Shown in pieces: positions 1 through 30,218 of a stretch of 38,255 nt of DNA. Under the pieces are notes generated by a model that saw only the letters and a program-made list of their open reading frames with translations, had not been told where the DNA came from and did no database searches. The position numbers and the translations under genes were made by a program. Source of the stretch: Actinomycetaceae bacterium (GTDB taxonomy: Bacteria; Actinomycetota; Actinomycetes; Actinomycetales; Actinomycetaceae); assembly GCA_017539125.1 (NCBI GenBank), contig JAFYHO010000087.1, forward strand, positions 1-38,255, in the 5' to 3' direction. Within the stretch, counting starts at the first letter, position 1. Every line of letters starts with the position of its first letter.

Positions 1-15
1 GTGGAGCTAACGGGA
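1..15. repeat. attL core direct repeat
   Basis: The sequence GTGGAGCTAACGGGA is identical to 30145-30159. At the right end it belongs to the tRNA-Ala 3' end; here it is the displaced copy left by integration. Weaker similarity to the tRNA continues for about 20 bases past the core, as expected if the element's own att site mimics the T-arm. Confidence 0.85.
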
Positions 16-937: not shown

Positions 938-1974
938 GTTTTGAAGCGTTGAATTGGGCGCAACACGATCTTCCGGAGCTTTCTATGGGTGAGGCGTTCA
1001 CTTTGATGTGTCTGGCGAACTATGCGGATGAGAATAACTCTTGTTACCCGTCGCAGGAGCAATTAGCTCGTGATGTTCATACGTCGCACGCATCTGTGAA
1101 GCGACATTTGAAGCGTTTGCGTGAGTTGGGGTTAATTTGTGTCAAGTCGCGTTCTTCATTGGGAGGGCGTAAAACTAACCGTTATATTCTTAATGTTGGC
1201 ATGAAACTTAGCAGTAGTGAAACTGCTGGTCAGCCTGCAACAGCTCAAAATGAGCTGTTGGGGAAACATAAACAAGACCTGCCTGTGGATAACTCTGTAT
1301 CGCCGCAGGTCAATCTGCAACAGCTCAAAATGAGCCATCGCACGACGGGCGAGCCTGCAACAGCTCAAAATGAGCCATCGCAACAGCTCACCGGTGAGCC
1401 GTTGCATATATATTCAAACCACCACTTGGAAACCCCCACTCCATACCAAGTCAGTAAGGAAGCTCGGCTTTCGCGCGAGGTTGCTTCGCTCGATGGTGGT
1501 GTGGTTGGCGTGGATGATTTTGTAAATGCGGTGGTTGACCGTGAGTTGCTTGATAAGGCTTTGCCTGCTTCGTGGCTTGGCAGTCTTCCGCATAACGCTC
1601 AGGCGCGTCTTTCGCGTGATATTGCGGGTTGGGTGGCTAAGGGTGGTAATCCTGCTGATATTCGCCGTCGTCTTGAAAATGATGCTTTGCCGCCTGTGAT
1701 AAAGAATTTTTCTGGTCTTGTGATTCACCGGGTTTCGCAGGCTTTAGAGGCCGTGTCCCCCTTGTCCCGTGAAGAGAAAAAACAGGCGCGGCGTAACGAG
1801 ATTCAACGGCTTGCTGAGGATGTTCTCAGTGAGGACAAGAGGCCAACTCAGCGTATGTGGGTGCAGCTTTCCAGTGCTCTAAGCGAGCTTAATTCTTCGT
1901 CTGATGCCGAGTTGTATGGCTTGGTTGAACAGGCATATCGCAAGATTTCTGACAACCTTTATTCCCACGTTTAG
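934..1974 (+). CDS. Winged-helix replication initiator-like protein
   Basis: Residues about 15-85 form a helix-turn-helix/winged-helix domain of the HTH_36 kind, with a YPSQEQLA recognition-type segment followed by KRHLKRLRELGLI and a basic wing. This domain is common in plasmid and phage replication initiators. Residues about 100-155 are low in predicted structure and are encoded by DNA containing repeated palindromes and a DnaA box. The C-terminal half is helical and unrecognised. An N-terminal DNA-binding domain with iterons inside the gene is the layout of RepA_N-type plasmid initiators, although I cannot show homology to that family. Starts by ATGA overlap with the previous gene, with GGAGA upstream. 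A transcription regulator remains possible. Confidence 0.65.
   Translation: MSFEALNWAQHDLPELSMGEAFTLMCLANYADENNSCYPSQEQLARDVHTSHASVKRHLKRLRELGLICVKSRSSLGGRKTNRYILNVGMKLSSSETAGQPATAQNELLGKHKQDLPVDNSVSPQVNLQQLKMSHRTTGEPATAQNEPSQQLTGEPLHIYSNHHLETPTPYQVSKEARLSREVASLDGGVVGVDDFVNAVVDRELLDKALPASWLGSLPHNAQARLSRDIAGWVAKGGNPADIRRRLENDALPPVIKNFSGLVIHRVSQALEAVSPLSREEKKQARRNEIQRLAEDVLSEDKRPTQRMWVQLSSALSELNSSSDAELYGLVEQAYRKISDNLYSHV
1234..1404. repeat. Palindromic iterons inside the Rep-like gene
   Basis: Four copies share CAACAGCTCAAAATGAGC or a close variant: 1238-1260, 1318-1340, 1358-1380 and 1381-1404. The first is a perfect palindrome with 10-base arms around AAA; the last has 9 of 10 paired positions around CCGG. 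Copies 1 to 2 are 80 bases apart and 2 to 3 are 40 apart. Copy 2 is read in a different frame from copies 1 and 3, so selection is on DNA, not peptide. Probable binding sites for the Rep-like protein and a candidate replication origin. Confidence 0.75.
1284..1292 (-). promoter_or_regulatory. DnaA box in candidate origin
   Basis: TGTGGATAA on the plus strand is a perfect consensus DnaA box (TTATCCACA) on the minus strand. It lies between iteron copies 1 and 2, which supports a DnaA-assisted origin inside the Rep-like gene. A single nine-base match alone could be chance; the context raises its weight. Confidence 0.5.
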
Positions 1975-6064: not shown

Positions 6065-6901
6065 ATGAATTTCAAGAAAAACACAAGCAATACTTTGCCT
6101 TCTAACACGTCAAAAATGCCCTATATTATTGGTGCTATTGTTGTCGTGATTGTCCTAGCCGCACTCTTCATTATTCCCCTATTTACGGGCGAGAAAAGTG
6201 ACGCAACAGAAAGCACGACATCTTCTGAGAACACGTCTGACAAGAAAGGAACGCCCTCTATTGTCACTGGAGCTTTGACCGCTGCAGGTGACGGTTTTGT
6301 GTGCTATGCCGACGGCAATGAAGTTACCTGCCTGGGGCAAAATACTCGCGCACAACTGGGCGACTATTCCAATCAAAACATCCACTCCAACTCGTTTAAT
6401 CTTGCTGGCGATGTTGTCTCCCTCGTCGCAGGTAAAGACTTCGCCTGTGCAACGAGCGGGCAAGGATTGACCTGCTGGGGCGATAATCGCTGGAAGCAGG
6501 CAGGCGATAGTGACGATGTGATGCTTGACCCGACCGAAGTGCCAACTTTTAAGAATAAAACTGTTTCCTCTATCAGTGCTGGCGAAAATTTCGCGTGTGC
6601 ACTGGCAGAAGAAGAAATCTATTGTTGGGGTGCAGACAACGCCGCCCAGCTCGGTAGCGGCGTTCAAGGCTCTGACGTGAACGGTATCAAGCGTGTAAGC
6701 CTGCCCGAAGGGGTAAAGCCCGTGCGTCTCATTTCCTCTGGTTTCTCCACGTTCTTCGAGACTGACAAGGGCGAGTGGTACGGCTTTGGCGCCAATCAAG
6801 AAGGACGCATTTCCTCTGATGCTGTCCCCTACCTTCCACCCACACCCGTTGGGCAGTCTACTGGGCAATCCATGACTGACGATGCCCACGCAAATGAATA
6901 G
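6065..6901 (+). CDS. Membrane-anchored RCC1-repeat protein
   Basis: The 278-residue product has one N-terminal membrane segment (about residues 19-41), a Ser/Thr-rich linker, then four RCC1-type repeats. Each repeat reads like FACA...CWGDN...AQLG, and the first three have a pair of cysteines about ten residues apart, suggesting disulfides outside the cell. RCC1 propellers usually need seven blades, so this is a half-propeller or it pairs with itself. It lies between virB4 and the wall hydrolase, so it is likely an outward-facing part of the mating apparatus, perhaps for contact or channel scaffolding. Function is inferred from position and topology. Confidence 0.75.
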   Translation: MNFKKNTSNTLPSNTSKMPYIIGAIVVVIVLAALFIIPLFTGEKSDATESTTSSENTSDKKGTPSIVTGALTAAGDGFVCYADGNEVTCLGQNTRAQLGDYSNQNIHSNSFNLAGDVVSLVAGKDFACATSGQGLTCWGDNRWKQAGDSDDVMLDPTEVPTFKNKTVSSISAGENFACALAEEEIYCWGADNAAQLGSGVQGSDVNGIKRVSLPEGVKPVRLISSGFSTFFETDKGEWYGFGANQEGRISSDAVPYLPPTPVGQSTGQSMTDDAHANE

Positions 6902-14650: not shown

Positions 14651-16120
14651 TTACCTGCTCAGTTTCGCGTTTGGCGTGGTCGGGGTTGGTGCTTGCTTTG
14701 CGGCGGCTGCACGCTCAGGGTCGAGCTTATAAGCTGCGTCTCGCTTACGAGCTGCGCGCTCCTGTTTTGTCTCAGTGCGCTTACTTTTCTGCTGTCCCCT
14801 GTTGTTGCGTGTAGTAGTCGTGGTGGTTTTTTGTGTCCCTGGGGCGTGCTGGGTAGGCACGTCTTGACCTGTGAGATTGCCGTCCAAAGTGATGTCCTGG
14901 GTCGGCTCTGGAACGTCATTGGAGGTGCTTACTGTTTCACTCACAACGGTTTCTTGTGTCTCTACTTCATTCTCAGAAAGCATTTCCTGTGTGTTCTTTG
15001 GTGTTTCCTGAGCTTTCTCGATCGTTTCACCGAGTTCTTTCTCCTGTGTGGGAGGCTCTACAACTCTTTCTTGCTTTACCTGCTCTTTGAGTGAGTTTTC
15101 TAGCTCTGTTTTTTCTTGAGCAAGCTGACTACGCTCCGTTTTCATTTCATCCATTGGCTCTGGAACATCATTGGAAGTGCTCACTGTTTCACTCACAACG
15201 GTTTCTTGTGTCTCTACTTCATGCCCAGCAAGCCCGTCCTCATGGGGTGCGCTCTGCGTGTTCTCTGGAGCTTCCTTGGCCTGATTGACCGTTTCGCTGA
15301 CTTCCCTGTCCTGGACGGGAGGCTCTACAGCTCTTTCTTGCTTTAGCTGCTCTTTGAGTGAGTTTTCTAGCTCTGTTTTTTCTTGCACTAGATCGGCGCG
15401 CTCTGTTTTCATCTCCTCGGCGCGCTCTTGACGCTCGATGCGCTCGTCTCGAAGTTCTTTTACTTCGTCAGAAAGCCCCGTTTGTTTCTCTCGCAATGCT
15501 TCTACTGCACGCTCATTTCCTTCTTGTTGGGAAAGCTGACTGATGTCTTTATCTATTGCGCCTATTTCTTCTGTTCTTTGGGCAATCTCTTTGTCTAGCT
15601 CACCGATAACTTTTTCCTCTGCTTGAATCGTCGCAGCAAGGTCGGTGATGTGCGCATCGAGCTCTCTGATTTCCATGCGCATGATTTCTGGCTGTACGGC
15701 TTCGAGGGCGTGCTCAAGGCGTGGCAGGTCTTTGGCCTCAAGGTGAATATATGCGCCATGCTCTGTGTGCTCTACAGTAAAAGCAACACCGTAGTATTCG
15801 AGTTTTGCTTTCAGTGCTTCAAGTTCTTTCGATTCAAGCAGGCGCGTGGTGTGGATGCCTGTGGTTTCTTGGGCTACGAGTTTTTTCATCGTGATTTCCC
15901 CACGCTTTTCCAACAGCTCCGGGTGTTCGTTGGCATAGCGCACAAGCGAAGCTATTGCTTTGAACGGCGCTGTGATTGCTTTCCCGGCCAGATAGGTTAT
16001 CCCTAGCGTGCCAATGACACCTGCGGTTGCCAGTCCTCCTATTCCTTGGGTTGCACCCCGGAACATGGGGCTAGCTAGTCGCATCATCATTTCTGTACTA
16101 CGCAGTGCTTCTTCACTCAT
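14651..16120 (-). CDS. PcfB-like (DUF3801) coiled-coil conjugation protein
   Basis: A 489-residue protein. Residues about 75-150 (KKLVAQETTG, then LKAKLEYYGVAFTVEHTEHGAYIHLEAKDLPRL) resemble PcfB/DUF3801 proteins, which are accessory factors that help a coupling protein recognise its substrate. A Gly/Ala-rich hydrophobic stretch lies near residues 25-50. A long coiled coil (about 150-270) follows, then two direct repeats of 84-86 residues. The C-terminus is basic, with QERAARKRDAAYKLDPERA and a final KLSR, akin to the tails of the zeta and Fic toxins. The start overlaps the relaxase end by four bases, and virD4 follows after ten. Confidence 0.75.
   Translation of the reverse strand: MSEEALRSTEMMMRLASPMFRGATQGIGGLATAGVIGTLGITYLAGKAITAPFKAIASLVRYANEHPELLEKRGEITMKKLVAQETTGIHTTRLLESKELEALKAKLEYYGVAFTVEHTEHGAYIHLEAKDLPRLEHALEAVQPEIMRMEIRELDAHITDLAATIQAEEKVIGELDKEIAQRTEEIGAIDKDISQLSQQEGNERAVEALREKQTGLSDEVKELRDERIERQERAEEMKTERADLVQEKTELENSLKEQLKQERAVEPPVQDREVSETVNQAKEAPENTQSAPHEDGLAGHEVETQETVVSETVSTSNDVPEPMDEMKTERSQLAQEKTELENSLKEQVKQERVVEPPTQEKELGETIEKAQETPKNTQEMLSENEVETQETVVSETVSTSNDVPEPTQDITLDGNLTGQDVPTQHAPGTQKTTTTTTRNNRGQQKSKRTETKQERAARKRDAAYKLDPERAAAAKQAPTPTTPNAKLSR
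14904..15410 (-). repeat. Two tandem 252-bp repeats in the PcfB-like gene
   Basis: The 84-codon units at about 14904-15155 and 15156-15410 each encode EMKTER, QEKTELENSLKEQ, ETQETVVSETVSTSNDVPEP and related segments. They differ at many positions, so the duplication is not fresh, yet some blocks remain identical. Copy number may vary between related elements. Confidence 0.8.
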
Positions 16121-18662: not shown

Positions 18663-18733
18663 TAATGCTGGCATTGTCGGTTAAAGCTGGCTTTTACATA
18701 AAGACTTGCTTTGCCGTAAAAGCCAGCTTTTAG
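18663..18733. repeat. GCTGGC repeat cluster 1 with hairpin
   Basis: It contains GCTGGCATTGTCGGTTAAA followed by a perfect 15-base inverted repeat (18683-18697 AAAGCTGGCTTTTAC with 18716-18730). It lies between ssb and the DpnD/PcfM-like gene and could end or attenuate the ssb transcript. The same units recur at 24724, 25309, 28076 and 28646. Confidence 0.7.
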
Positions 18734-18737
18734 GTGT

Positions 18738-19163
18738 TTAGTTCTCCCGCTCAGCGTGTGCCTCGTTGTTCTCCGGGACTATTTCTGTTTGCTGTGGACG
18801 GGTCTTTTTTATAAAAGTTGCCGTGCCGGTGGCCAGGTCGATGCCGACTCGGTCAGCGGTGATGACGTGGCGGGAGCGCTTTACTCCGTCCTCACCTACC
18901 CACTCGCGCAACTTCAATGTGCCCCGCACAAGAACAGGCGTGCCCTTGTCGATAGAGGCAAGAACGTTGCGGGCTAAAGTGCCGTATGTGCGCACTGAGT
19001 ACCACGCGGTAGCCTCGTCCTCCCATGTGTCGGCTTCTTTGTTGAAACGGCGAGAGGTAACACCGACAGAGAAAACTACTGTCTGGATACCGTTCTCATT
19101 CTCATAAACATCAGGCATTCCGCCTACGTAACCTGAAACGATGATTTTAGTGTCATTAGACAT
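18738..19163 (-). CDS. ssb: Single-stranded DNA-binding protein 1
   Basis: A 141-residue protein with an OB fold: IIVSGYVGGMPDV at the start, VVFSVGVTSRRFN, TAWYSVRTYGTLARNV, KGTPVLVRGTLKLREW and ADRVGIDLATGTATF. It would coat the incoming strand. The usual acidic SSB tip (DDDIPF-like) is absent; the protein ends NEAHAEREN. Its start overlaps the upstream nrdH stop by eight bases, so both come from one message that begins near the fold-back at 19459-19649. About half of the residues match the second SSB encoded at 28168. Confidence 0.92.
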   Translation of the reverse strand: MSNDTKIIVSGYVGGMPDVYENENGIQTVVFSVGVTSRRFNKEADTWEDEATAWYSVRTYGTLARNVLASIDKGTPVLVRGTLKLREWVGEDGVKRSRHVITADRVGIDLATGTATFIKKTRPQQTEIVPENNEAHAEREN

Positions 19164-23286: not shown

Positions 23287-23317
23287 AAATGCCAGCATTA
23301 TAGAAATTGCTGGTTTT
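23287..23317. terminator. Convergent terminator between fic and the lipoprotein gene
   Basis: AAAATGCCAGCA and TGCTGGTTTTT flank a ten-base loop. It sits exactly between two converging genes and reuses the GCCAGC motif. Confidence 0.65.
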
Positions 23318-24728: not shown

Positions 24729-24790
24729 CTTTACGGCAAAGCTGGCTTTTACGACAATGCTGGCATTGTCGGTAAATGCTGGCATTTTCC
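24724..24790. repeat. GCTGGC repeat cluster 2
   Basis: Four GCTGGC or CCAGC units with TTTACGGCAAA and GTCGGTAAAT spacers, at the end of repeat D. From 24791 to 24900 nothing further is recognised apart from a C run at 24872-24879. Confidence 0.65.
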
Positions 24791-24900: not shown

Positions 24901-25287
24901 TTAGCGTCGTCCTTTGGGGATAACGTCGGTTTCTAGTGGGATAAATGCTTGCCCGCCATTGACACGTTTTTCTGTGTCGTGAACTGTGTCCATGAGGTGG
25001 GTGACGATCCATTGACTAAAGGATGACACTTTCCTGGTCGCGGCTTCTGCCATGAAAGCCGCTCTCATGCGTCCTGCGTCGTCCTCGTCCACAGCAAACG
25101 TGATTTTCTTCTTGGGCTTTTTCTCCCCAGCTAGTTTGTTTGCTTGCGCGACAAGCGAGGGTGTGCCAAGCTCGTCCGGAGCTTCCATATCACTAACCGG
25201 CGCAGTTGGCAGCCCTGCGGCGATAATAGGGTCTGTGACCGGGGCTTGCTTGAGCGAGTCCATGACTTCTTGACTGGGAACTTTCAT
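24901..25287 (-). CDS. Probable ParA partner protein
   Basis: A 128-residue protein: a flexible N-terminal half, a basic KKPKKKITFAVDEDDAGRMR and a helical C-terminal part (SSFSQWIVTHLM) that looks like a ribbon-helix-helix DNA-binding domain. Small proteins of this build downstream of parA bind centromere repeats in type Ib partition systems. AAGGAG lies upstream of the ATG. The cluster of repeats just before its start (25309-25360) is a natural binding site. Assignment depends on context; no specific family was recognised. Confidence 0.6.
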   Translation of the reverse strand: MKVPSQEVMDSLKQAPVTDPIIAAGLPTAPVSDMEAPDELGTPSLVAQANKLAGEKKPKKKITFAVDEDDAGRMRAAFMAEAATRKVSSFSQWIVTHLMDTVHDTEKRVNGGQAFIPLETDVIPKGRR

Positions 25288-25308
25288 TATCTTTCTTCTC
25301 CTTATCTA

Positions 25309-25360
25309 ATGCCAGCGTTTACGGCAAAGCTTGCATTGTTGGTTAATGCTGGCATTTATT
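25309..25360. repeat. GCTGGC repeat cluster 3 at the par locus
   Basis: AATGCCAGC and GCTGGCATT form an inverted pair around TTTACGGCAAAGCTTGC-type units. It lies between parA and its partner gene and overlaps the parA 3' end. Candidate centromere or operator. Confidence 0.6.
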
Positions 25361-26101
25361 GACGAGTTGAGTGAACACGTTATCAACACATTCTTCTTTA
25401 CCGACCGCAATCGGTTCGTGTGCAGAGTTTGCCTTGGCAATGTGCTCGTGCTTGGGGAGCATGTCCTCGATGAGGTAGTCCCCGTAATACTCAGAGAGGG
25501 CTTCGACCCACTCAGTGACGTTCGTGCGGGCTTTAATATGCTCATTGATAACAATGGCAATGTGCTGTAGCTTGGGATTGTAGTGCCCTCGCACTGCGGA
25601 AATCGTGTTGAACACTTCCGCAACACCGTTAGTCGCTGTCTCACGCGGGTGCGTCACAACAACAGCCATGTCTGCTGCTACAAGAGCATTAGAGGTCATC
25701 ATGCCAAGCGAGGGTGGACAATCAAGCACAATATGCTCATACGTCCCTGTAAGCCCCTCTAAAGCGGTTTGTAGGCGGAACTCACGCCCGAGTGCCATAT
25801 CTGTCTCACGGGTCGCTAGAGCACGGTTAGCGGGGATAATATCAAAGCCCCACGGCTCAGCTGCCGACACGATGGCTTTGCGTGCCAAGGAAGCCGACGC
25901 GCCCCCTGCAATAGCGGCAAGCACATCATTGAGCGTATTCATGCCACCCGTGACCTCGATGCCACAGGTACTTGTCGCATCTCCTTGCGGGTCACAATCA
26001 ACCAACAGCACACGAGCATTCTGTGCAAGGCGATTAGCAAGATTAACCGCAACAGTCGTCTTGCCAACACCGCCTTTCTGATTCACAACAGCAATAATCA
26101 T
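25343..26101 (-). CDS. parA: ParA-family partition ATPase
   Basis: The 252-residue protein begins MIIAVVNQKGGVGKTTVAVN, the deviant Walker A of ParA/Soj ATPases with the signature Lys residues at 9 and 14. VLLVDCDPQGDAT and HIVLDCPPSLG are the A' and B motifs. It moves or positions the circular element so that both daughters keep it. No N-terminal DNA-binding domain is present, so it is the short type. AAAGGAG precedes the ATG; the partner gene follows after the repeat cluster. It implies that the element spends time as a replicating circle. Confidence 0.93.
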   Translation of the reverse strand: MIIAVVNQKGGVGKTTVAVNLANRLAQNARVLLVDCDPQGDATSTCGIEVTGGMNTLNDVLAAIAGGASASLARKAIVSAAEPWGFDIIPANRALATRETDMALGREFRLQTALEGLTGTYEHIVLDCPPSLGMMTSNALVAADMAVVVTHPRETATNGVAEVFNTISAVRGHYNPKLQHIAIVINEHIKARTNVTEWVEALSEYYGDYLIEDMLPKHEHIAKANSAHEPIAVGKEECVDNVFTQLVNKCQH

Positions 26102-28083: not shown

Positions 28084-28160
28084 TTTACGGCAAAGCTGGC
28101 ATTGTCGGTAAATGCTGGCATTTTCCTGCTTTTGTAAAAGTGGTTAATGCCAGCATTTAC
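28076..28160. repeat. GCTGGC repeat cluster 4 with hairpin
   Basis: CCAGCTTTTACGGCAAAGC, GCTGGCATTGTCGGTAAAT and a perfect 15-base inverted repeat (28108-28122 with 28146-28160). The hairpin follows the ssb 2 stop, as cluster 1 follows ssb 1, and may end that transcript. Confidence 0.7.
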
Positions 28161-28167
28161 GAGTTGG

Positions 28168-28602
28168 CTAGTATTGTTCATCCCATTCGTTTGGGTAATC
28201 GGGGAGCGGTGCTGGCTGTTCTTCAGCTTGAATCTCGCCGTTCTTGGTGAATGTTGCCGTACCGGTGGCAAGCTCGATGCCGAGAGCGTCAGCAATAATG
28301 ACATCACTTTGCTTGGCATTACCCTCGTCATCTGTCCACTCCCGACGAGTAAAACGACCCCGGACAAGAACGGGCATACCTTTTTTGATTGTGGCGGCCA
28401 CGTTGCGTGCAAGAGAGCCATAGGAGCGCACTTGATACCACATGGTAGTATCACTTTCCCACTCGCGATTTTCCCGGTTGAAACGGCGAGCTGTCACACC
28501 AACTGACACAAGTGTCATATCCGGTGCTCCGTCCCTCGCTTCAAAAGTCTGCGCGTCAGCGCCTGCGAAACCGGAAACAGTAACTTGAGTTGCGTTAAAC
28601 AT
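28168..28602 (-). CDS. ssb: Single-stranded DNA-binding protein 2
   Basis: A 144-residue SSB (QVTVSGFAGADAQTF, VSVGVTARRFN, TMWYQVRSYGSLARNVA, KGMPVLVRGRFTRREW, ADALGIELATGTATF). I start at MFNATQV, 28602, behind AAAGGAACACTG. It ends PNEWDEQY, again without the common acidic tip. Its order relative to nrdH is the reverse of the first pair, and it has its own leader with repeat cluster 5. Confidence 0.92.
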   Translation of the reverse strand: MFNATQVTVSGFAGADAQTFEARDGAPDMTLVSVGVTARRFNRENREWESDTTMWYQVRSYGSLARNVAATIKKGMPVLVRGRFTRREWTDDEGNAKQSDVIIADALGIELATGTATFTKNGEIQAEEQPAPLPDYPNEWDEQY

Positions 28603-28920
28603 AATCAGTGTTCCTTTCTGTACAACTAACAAAAACGGTGAGCGGAAATGCTGGCATTTACGGCAAAGCTGGCATTGTCGGTAAATGCTGGCTTTTAATG
28701 AAAAAGGAGAGCTTCTCGCCCTGGAGTGTCATGTGTAAACAAAAAACAATTAGGACGAGAAGCTCACATGTAAGCATCAGGAAAATGCGCACAAGACGAT
28801 TTCTCCAAAAAACTGTGCAAGCCAAAAGGCTTCGCGCCTCACCTGCGCGGCTCACCAATGCCTACACTTATATACCCGACTTTTATCTACGAAATCGCAC
28901 CCTGCAAAACGTGAAATGGG
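28603..28920. other. Gap between integrase and ssb 2
   Basis: No reliable gene. GCTGGC repeat cluster 5 lies at 28646-28699. A dyad of GAGCTTCTCG (28709-28718) and CGAGAAGCTC (28756-28765) encloses TGTAAACAAAAAACAATTA (28734-28752), which nearly repeats at 30095-30113 in the attachment arm. A small AAGCC/GGCTT hairpin lies near 28818. The 121-codon plus-strand frame is poor in coding character. Confidence 0.55.
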
Positions 28921-29979
28921 TTATCTGGTGGGTAGTTCTGGGAGTTTATTGGCAAGTTCTTTTTGTCGTTTAATGCTGGCGTGTTGATACACCATAACGG
29001 TATCTGCGTCCTCGTGCCCACCACGACTCATCAGATCAGCATTAGTCGCTCCGGTGCGCCCGTACCAGGTCAAGTGTGTGTGCCTAAGCTCGTGAAAAGT
29101 TACATTTCCTAATCCTGCTTTTTTACGTGCTTCATTAAACTTATTATTAAATGTCGTGTGTGCTATCGGGTCGCTCGGGTTTCTACTCGCGGGAATGATA
29201 GGAGCGGTCGGAAAGTCCTCACAATAATCACTTTTAAGATAGGTACGCAAAGCAGGCATAATCTGGCTTGGTATAGCCAATGTGCGCACTCCAGCTTTTG
29301 TTTTAGGCGCACCAAGCATGCCCCCACCTTCTGAACGTTTCAAAGCTCTGCGCACGTGCATTTCTTCATTGTCCAAGTCAATATCTTGGCGCTGCAACCC
29401 CGCCATCTCGCCAAAACGCAGCCCCATATATGCGCCTAACAAGATACTGATGCGATAGCGTTCTTCCATTGCCAAATACAAGTCGAAAACTTGTCGAGGG
29501 GTAAGCGCTACACGTTCACGTTTAGCTTTGAAACTCAAAGCCTTTTTAATCTTGCGTATCGGATTTTCTTCGACCACACCCTCATCGACAAGATACGCAT
29601 AAAACGCAGAGACGGCGCGCGTGACATTAAAACGCCTTGCACTACCATCAATAGAGGAAAAAAGTAGTTCCCACTCATCAACTCTAATCTCATGCGGATA
29701 ACGCTCAGCAAAAACAGGAAAAACGTGCTTACGAAGATTGCTCTTATACCCTCGTAACGTATTAGGTGAATAATCGTTATCGACTAAATACTCCCACCAT
29801 AACTCTGCCCAATACTCAAAAGTATGCGCACTATCATTACCAACCCTTTCCTCACCCGCATACCCCAAGTCTTTCAAAATATCCCGCACAGCAATAGCCT
29901 CACTAAGTGAAGCATAACGGCGAATAACCCCACGCCCACGCACAACGTAAAACCCATTATCGGTAACCTCAATGCTCAC
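28921..29979 (-). CDS. int: Tyrosine site-specific integrase
   Basis: A 352-residue phage-type integrase from GTG 29979 with AAAGGAG upstream; a longer frame would read through the attachment arm. An N-terminal arm-binding part is followed by a SAM-like core-binding domain (about 52-130) and the catalytic domain: Arg 188 in GAYMGLRFGE, HELRH at 296-300, His 322 and Tyr 331 (VMVYQHAS). All catalytic residues are present. The gene ends toward the element and starts next to the tRNA, the normal layout for tRNA-targeting elements. Confidence 0.95.
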   Translation of the reverse strand: MSIEVTDNGFYVVRGRGVIRRYASLSEAIAVRDILKDLGYAGEERVGNDSAHTFEYWAELWWEYLVDNDYSPNTLRGYKSNLRKHVFPVFAERYPHEIRVDEWELLFSSIDGSARRFNVTRAVSAFYAYLVDEGVVEENPIRKIKKALSFKAKRERVALTPRQVFDLYLAMEERYRISILLGAYMGLRFGEMAGLQRQDIDLDNEEMHVRRALKRSEGGGMLGAPKTKAGVRTLAIPSQIMPALRTYLKSDYCEDFPTAPIIPASRNPSDPIAHTTFNNKFNEARKKAGLGNVTFHELRHTHLTWYGRTGATNADLMSRGGHEDADTVMVYQHASIKRQKELANKLPELPTR

Positions 29980-30144
29980 CGATACACTCCTTTTCCTCCA
30001 CCAAGCACACAATATACAGTCCCACAAAAACCAGAAAAGCGGAATAAAACACTCCAAGAACTGGACAAAAGTCCTAAAACTGCTAGTATGAAACTGTAAA
30101 CAAAAAATAATTAAAGTGTGTAGTAGTACGGAAATCAAGCAACT
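29980..30144. other. Attachment-site arm beside the integrase
   Basis: This non-coding stretch separates the integrase start from the core. It holds TGTAAACAAAAAATAATTA (30095-30113), a near copy of 28734-28752, and AT-rich sequence suited to arm binding. Confidence 0.5.
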
Positions 30145-30159
30145 GTGGAGCTAACGGGA
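30145..30159. repeat. attR core direct repeat
   Basis: Identical to 1-15 and covering the last 14 bases of the tRNA-Ala gene plus one base beyond it. Recombination here rebuilds an intact tRNA. Confidence 0.85.
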
Positions 30160-30218
30160 TTCGAACCCGTGACCTCTTCCATGCCATGGAAGCGCGCTAC
30201 CAACTGCGCCATAGCCCC
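30146..30218 (-). tRNA. tRNA-Ala (GGC)
   Basis: A 73-base cloverleaf: acceptor GGGGCTA pairs with TAGCTCC (one G-U), discriminator A, anticodon loop ATGGCAT with anticodon GGC, T-loop GTTCGAATC. CCA is not encoded. It is the integration target and remains whole. Confidence 0.97.

Follow-up and report, generated by a model that had tools for sequence, protein, structure and literature searches.

The segment 1238–1438 is probably a replication origin that lies inside its own initiator gene, would be aided by DnaA, would work by the theta mode, and would be used after excision of the conjugative element carrying it. The analyzed window, a DNA stretch of 38,255 nucleotides, is contig C64 of a 1.79-Mb draft genome. 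Read at the sequence level, the basis of this assignment comprises the repeats, a DnaA box, conservation of the DNA itself, an N-domain with O-like homology, and the context of the element.

The gene (934–1974, + strand) encodes an initiator-like protein of 346 residues, with an HTH_36 N-domain, an array-bearing linker, and a C-domain. The array begins ~300 nt into the gene. Iteron 1 (1238–1260, unstranded) is a perfect palindrome with 10-bp arms, CAACAGCTCA-AAA-TGAGCTGTTG. Iteron 2 (1318–1340, + strand) is the imperfect palindrome CAACAGCTCA-AAA-TGAGCCATCG, and iteron 3 (1358–1380, + strand) is a 23-mer identical to iteron 2 in the other reading frame. Both retain the inner arms GCTCA/TGAGC intact and carry 2–3 mismatches in the outer right arm. 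Iteron 4 (1380–1405, unstranded) is formed by GCAACAGCTCACC and GGTGAGCCGTTGC around a different spacer, and 12 of its 13 arm bases pair. The core shared by the iterons is CAACAGCTCA-N-TGAGC. An earlier note on this DNA had described four palindromic copies at 40-base steps, kept at the DNA level although read in two frames, with a perfect DnaA box among them. The four copies are real; as palindromes, the first is perfect and the fourth nearly so, while the second and third are imperfect. The even steps were an error: the centers at 1249, 1329, 1369, and 1392.5 are spaced by 80, 40, and ~24 bp.

The iteron consensus matched 6 times in the 38-kb window, both strands counted, as compared with 0.01 matches expected. 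The pattern CAACAGCTCA-N2-4-TGAGC has four sites in the 1.79-Mb assembly, all in this array and none elsewhere. Exact 11-mer repeats cover 122 nt of the gene. When synonymous codons were shuffled with the protein sequence fixed, the mean coverage was 12.7, and the observed value was reached in 0 of 5000 trials. The iterons are translated as ATAQNE (copies 1 and 3) or as QQL (copies 2 and 4), which upholds their conservation as DNA across two frames. The protein sequence does not account for the repeats.

The DnaA box named in the earlier note was confirmed as the sole perfect copy in the 38 kb (0.28 expected per window). It reads TTATCCACA (1284–1292, − strand) and lies within CCTGTGGATAAC, which codes for PVDN; the 12-mer GTTATCCACAGG at this site occurs a single time in the assembly. 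The center of the box (1288) is separated by 39 bp from that of iteron 1 and by 41 bp from that of iteron 2, and the box fills the vacant 40-bp slot between them. In the linkers of the relatives, the V-D-N codons are GTG-GAT-AAC (TGTGGATAA) at 15 of 17 sites, with 2.1 expected from the codon usage of each gene. Two PVDN motifs occur in L031; the N-terminal one is written CCC-GTC-GAC-AAC, and the one in the linker is CCT-GTG-GAT-AAC, which equals the box. The distance from the center of the first palindrome to the DnaA box is 39–40 bp in nine genes (the window gene, L007, L009, L012, L016, L017, L019, L020, and L022). L019 keeps this spacing despite an unrelated N-domain, and it has two DnaA boxes. 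Measured by hand, the spacing is ~25–28 bp in L004 and L006. A box at 25 occurs in both L013 and L022; the one that L013 has at 40 is degenerate. A perfect box was absent from some relatives in the family comparison. An exact 40-bp rule for all relatives was rejected, as it fails in L004, L006, and L013; the 39–40 bp spacing is a tendency. Its constancy may be due in part to a colinear protein segment, because the box and the first iteron mostly share a frame.

Directly 3' of the iterons is an AT-rich stretch, TTGCATATATATTC (1402–1415, + strand, 79% AT), which is a candidate unwinding site. It is followed by the degenerate tandem AAACCACCA/AAACCCCCA (1416–1438, + strand), the counterpart of an RAACCAYCA element in the relatives. 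AT-richness is not significant in the window, and the AT peak of the window is located away from the candidate site. In most relatives, the peak falls at the position matching 1402–1415, over the candidate unwinding site, and in many of them the tandem element overlaps the top AT-rich stretch. The tandem form, RAACCAYCA-N3/4-GAACCACCA, stands right after the last iteron in most close relatives, and the element was found in L004, L007, L012, L013, L014, L016, L017, L018, L020, L022, L057, L091, and L092. All three frames are used for it: it is read as EPPIEPP in L004, L017, L018, and L022, as TTNRTT in L012, L013, and L014, and as NHQLNHQ or similar in L007, L016, and L020. The strict pattern GAACCAYCA-N2-4-GAACCACCA yielded 8 matches in 213 genomes, every one in this initiator gene family, and the reversed control pattern yielded 0 in the same genomes. 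Five of the matches (G021, G044, G069, G145, and G179) correspond to L017, L012, L004, L018, and L022, respectively; those in G151, G162, and G004 fall into linkers of the same family. The initiator gene in G004 (L086) is interrupted, and it retains the iterons and the tandem element. Judging by the sequence comparison, the AT-rich stretch and the degenerate tandem are part of the same conserved layout as the iterons.

The winged-helix N-domain covers approximately residues 1–90 (Pfam HTH_36, E 5e-12 over residues 15–68), and the family alignment places the C-terminal domain at approximately residues 204–336. Profiles of phage replication-initiation PHROGs matched residues 1–172 (phrog_1032, E 3.3e-17; the O-like phrog_391, E 2.5e-15). 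These matches end near residue 172 and leave out the C-domain, for whose family four scans of viral contigs gave no relative. By sequence profile, the N-domain is nearest to HTH_36 and phage O-like initiators. The protein had no match to PF06970 (RepA_N), even at E 0.1. A search of genome contigs with the protein returned one locus only, in a Hellea MAG and limited to the HTH domain, and the family profile found no significant relative among PDB sequences. The AlphaFold2 model of the full protein from a single sequence had a pLDDT of 49 and was left out of the fold searches, for which we used a model of residues 1–105 (pLDDT 78). This model is predicted to be a winged helix. It aligned with 4pql_B with a Z of 10.7 over 90 residues (rmsd 3.3), and unrelated winged helices scored equally. 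The N-domains of RepA_N proteins (4pql, 4pt7, 5kbj) and DnaD aligned over nearly the whole model, tied with ordinary regulators. As modeled, the PDB matches do not separate RepA_N and DnaD from ordinary winged helices. The viral structure matches of the model include one phage replication protein O.

In the same taxonomic family, sampled as one genome per species, 35 of 213 genomes had a match to the protein, the window's own genome included. The aligned relatives have the N-domain and the C-domain in common, with a variable linker between them. An excess of DNA repeats over synonymous-codon shuffles was found in 22 of 24 homologues (p ≤ 0.025; the exceptions are L006 and L027), and the densest 300 nt of repeats sits over the linker. 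A separate run with controls gave z > 3 in 20 of 26 initiator genes as compared with 10 of 111 control ORFs. The palindromes are clade-specific (GCAACCGGCCAAGTTGGCCGGTTGC in L007, ATACCGGTCAATCTGACCGGTAT in L020, TGGTCAAAATTTGACCA in L030), and the diverged ones share their position and the inner core G-N-Y-C-A/TGRNC. L019 and L029 match in the C-domain only and have a different N-domain; linker repeats are still present. The comparison thus indicates that the origin-like layout is characteristic of this gene family. When the search was extended to the order, HTH_36 genes whose linkers contain repeats turned up in further taxonomic families. The phage HTH_36 genes L099 and L101 carry linker repeats too, and such repeats may thus be an old feature of HTH_36 initiators. 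One relative lies near T4SS genes on the Corynebacterium mustelae plasmid pCmus45274. We rejected this plasmid as proof that the relative is a sole rep gene; because a separate RepA is present, the relative need not be the working replicon of that plasmid.

The window gene rides on an element of ~30.1 kb bounded by a 15-bp direct repeat, GTGGAGCTAACGGGA, with its left copy at 1–15 (+ strand) and the second at 30145–30159, the 3' end of a tRNA-Ala gene. A tyrosine integrase (28921–30138, − strand; Phage_integrase, E 3.2e-22) adjoins this tRNA gene (30145–30218). The cargo includes PrgI, VirB4, CHAP, TrbL/VirB6-like, NikA/MobC, VirD4, MobP relaxase, ArdA, Fic, zeta toxin, and SSB genes. Because the integrase, the att repeats at a tRNA, the relaxase, the coupling protein, and VirB4 are all present, the element is an integrative conjugative element of the T4SS type. 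It also encodes a ParA ATPase (25343–26101, − strand; AAA_31, E 2.8e-43) and its likely ParB-type centromere-binding partner (24901–25287, − strand; CB_ParB_C, E 1.8e-5, slightly short of the curated cut-off). The earlier note had proposed an integrated actinobacterial element with ParA; integration and the partition pair are supported, and an actinobacterial host would be consistent with the Corynebacterium plasmid relative. The start of the contig at an att repeat was rejected as a sign of excision, since the last bases of contig C66 are an overlapping copy of positions 1–141, and this contig extends further to the left. An SSB gene was assigned by Pfam at 18738–19163, and a second SSB-like reading frame (28168–28632) was judged by eye. 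Adjoining VirD4, the ORF 14651–16120 (489 aa) has no match in Pfam, and its DNA is strongly repetitive as compared with codon shuffles (z 8.4). An RCC1-repeat protein (6065–6901) stands between VirB4 and the CHAP hydrolase, and its homologue is similarly placed in L036.

The gene stands first in a T4SS cluster of the same orientation, and the protein may be a transcription regulator of that downstream operon, with the palindromes as its operators (by roadblock or autoregulation) and the DnaA box as a regulatory site. The generic winged-helix fold of the N-domain would suit such a role, as would the T4SS surroundings of the relative on pCmus45274, a plasmid with its own RepA. However, among the sampled neighborhoods only L036 and L047 share the window's T4SS genes by tblastn, a result that leaves room for unrelated T4SS genes. 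The array is located ~300 nt inside the gene, the profile matches are replication initiators, and conservation of the array extends to the DnaA box and to the tandem element. We therefore regard a regulator as unlikely.

Relaxase-driven replication of integrative conjugative elements is established in other elements, and the MobP-type relaxase found here would allow rolling-circle replication by the relaxase alone, as in ICEBs1. The initiator-like gene and the array would then be a remnant, or serve another step, for example oriT or the control of excision. The relaxase gene lies at a distance of 14 kb, and the constraint on the array DNA has been kept across many genera along with the open reading frame, unlike in a remnant; this scenario has a low probability, below that of the regulator.

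The presence of ParA and a ParB-like protein also raises the question of whether the palindromes serve this system as its centromere (parS), as palindrome arrays are typical of centromeres. A better candidate is the palindrome AATGCTGGCATT, which has 28 approximate matches as compared with 4.7 expected, clustered near parA and at further intergenic sites (18664–18730, 23288–23299, 24738–24786, 25308–25356, 28092–28157, and 28647–28695). These clusters are likely ParB sites that double as operators. The intragenic array, for its part, accompanies the initiator gene in the relatives and carries a DnaA box, and we find a centromere at this position very improbable. Finally, linkers are often repetitive, but a chance or protein-level repeat is refuted, leaving it a negligible probability, because identical DNA occurs in different frames and the repeats vanish in synonymous-codon shuffles.

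For the intragenic origin, we propose the following mechanism. In dimeric or oligomeric form, the HTH_36 winged-helix N-domain would bind the palindromic iterons, and host DnaA would bind the box fixed 39–40 bp from the first iteron. Helix opening or the loading of helicase or primase would take place at the AT-rich stretch and the tandem element, with the C-terminal domain recruiting host replication proteins. Most of the linker would owe its sequence to the origin, its translation being incidental. The origin would act on the excised circle, together with the ParA/ParB and SSB of the element, and replication would presumably proceed by the theta mode.

The proposed origin has counterparts in known systems. 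In pSK41, four Rep boxes lie in the middle of rep, the linker is encoded by the ori, and the C-domain binds primase (PMC5703833). The repeats of RepA_N plasmids are semi-palindromic and converge on an A tract (PMC7145576). The RepA_N initiators pSK41 Rep and pTZ2162 RepA thus resemble the window protein in a winged-helix N-domain, a linker encoded by origin or origin-like DNA with four boxes, and a separate C-domain; semi-palindromic repeats converging on an A tract are a further likeness, and their boxes within rep appear to be matched by the candidate array (1238–1405) and by those of the relatives. Over 90 residues, both 4pql and 4pt7 aligned with the modeled N-domain, in a tie with unrelated winged helices. 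The window protein differs in lacking PF06970 and in having a perfect DnaA box at fixed spacing and a tandem RAACCAYCA element; no plasmid DnaA box had been found in staphylococcal plasmids (PMC5703833). This gene rides on an integrated T4SS element and not on a plasmid of Firmicutes. The earlier note had likened the origin inside the initiator gene to RepA_N plasmids. The array inside the gene, on an integrated conjugative element, is supported, with the same anatomy of array and gene in 22 of 24 homologues. The parallel is apt as an analogy; membership in RepA_N is not supported.

In lambda, the ori in the middle of O has four iterons and an AT-rich tract as its described parts (PMC7466680). 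The layout of the window is similar, and its N-domain matches O-like PHROGs, but it adds a DnaA box that is not among the described parts of the lambda ori, and its C-domain family was not found in the four viral-contig scans. Beside the window gene, no P-like helicase loader was recognized. The phage initiators L099 and L101 have the HTH_36 N-domain and direct repeats in the linker; they differ in the C-domain and in the repeats, and neither a DnaA box nor a tandem element was found in them. The parallels suggest, by analogy, that the proposed origin works like those of RepA_N (pSK41) and lambda O. As in iteron origins helped by DnaA, iterons and a DnaA box occur together here; an AT-rich stretch lies beside them, and its AT content does not reach significance in the window. 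AICEs of the pSAM2 type are integrated, tRNA-targeted conjugative elements that replicate, and tRNA-targeted integration is likewise seen here. They appear to differ from the window element, whose scanned genes include a VirB4/VirD4 T4SS, a MobP relaxase, and an HTH_36 initiator; AICEs combine RepSA, RepAM, or Prim-Pol with an FtsK-type transfer protein (PMC3218068).

A description of the family was not found in the open-access literature, the scope of our search. The same layout with different repeats in distant relatives suggests a little-described class of self-replicating conjugative elements. More tentatively, and with somewhat less than even confidence, we propose a distinct, undescribed initiator family of conjugative integrative elements that is defined by the C-domain. 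In it, the origin would always be intragenic, and its grammar would be fixed: a palindromic iteron followed at 40 bp by a DnaA box, then more iterons specific to the clade, and a tandem RAACCAYCA, independent of frame, as the opening or loading site. The N-domain would be exchangeable, as suggested by the unrelated ones in L019 and L029.

Only a few groups of T4SS conjugative elements have a known mode of replication after excision, and when actinobacterial integrative conjugative elements were surveyed, the replication types recognized were mainly RepSA, RepAM, and Prim-Pol (PMC3218068). If the proposed origin is correct, a widespread group of elements would have a recognizable origin of the theta type. 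Its three DNA elements would be open to tests by synonymous changes, and it would provide replicon parts for genera with few vectors. The family would also offer a natural series of diverged pairs of initiator and iteron, in which a single gene contains both the protein and its site.
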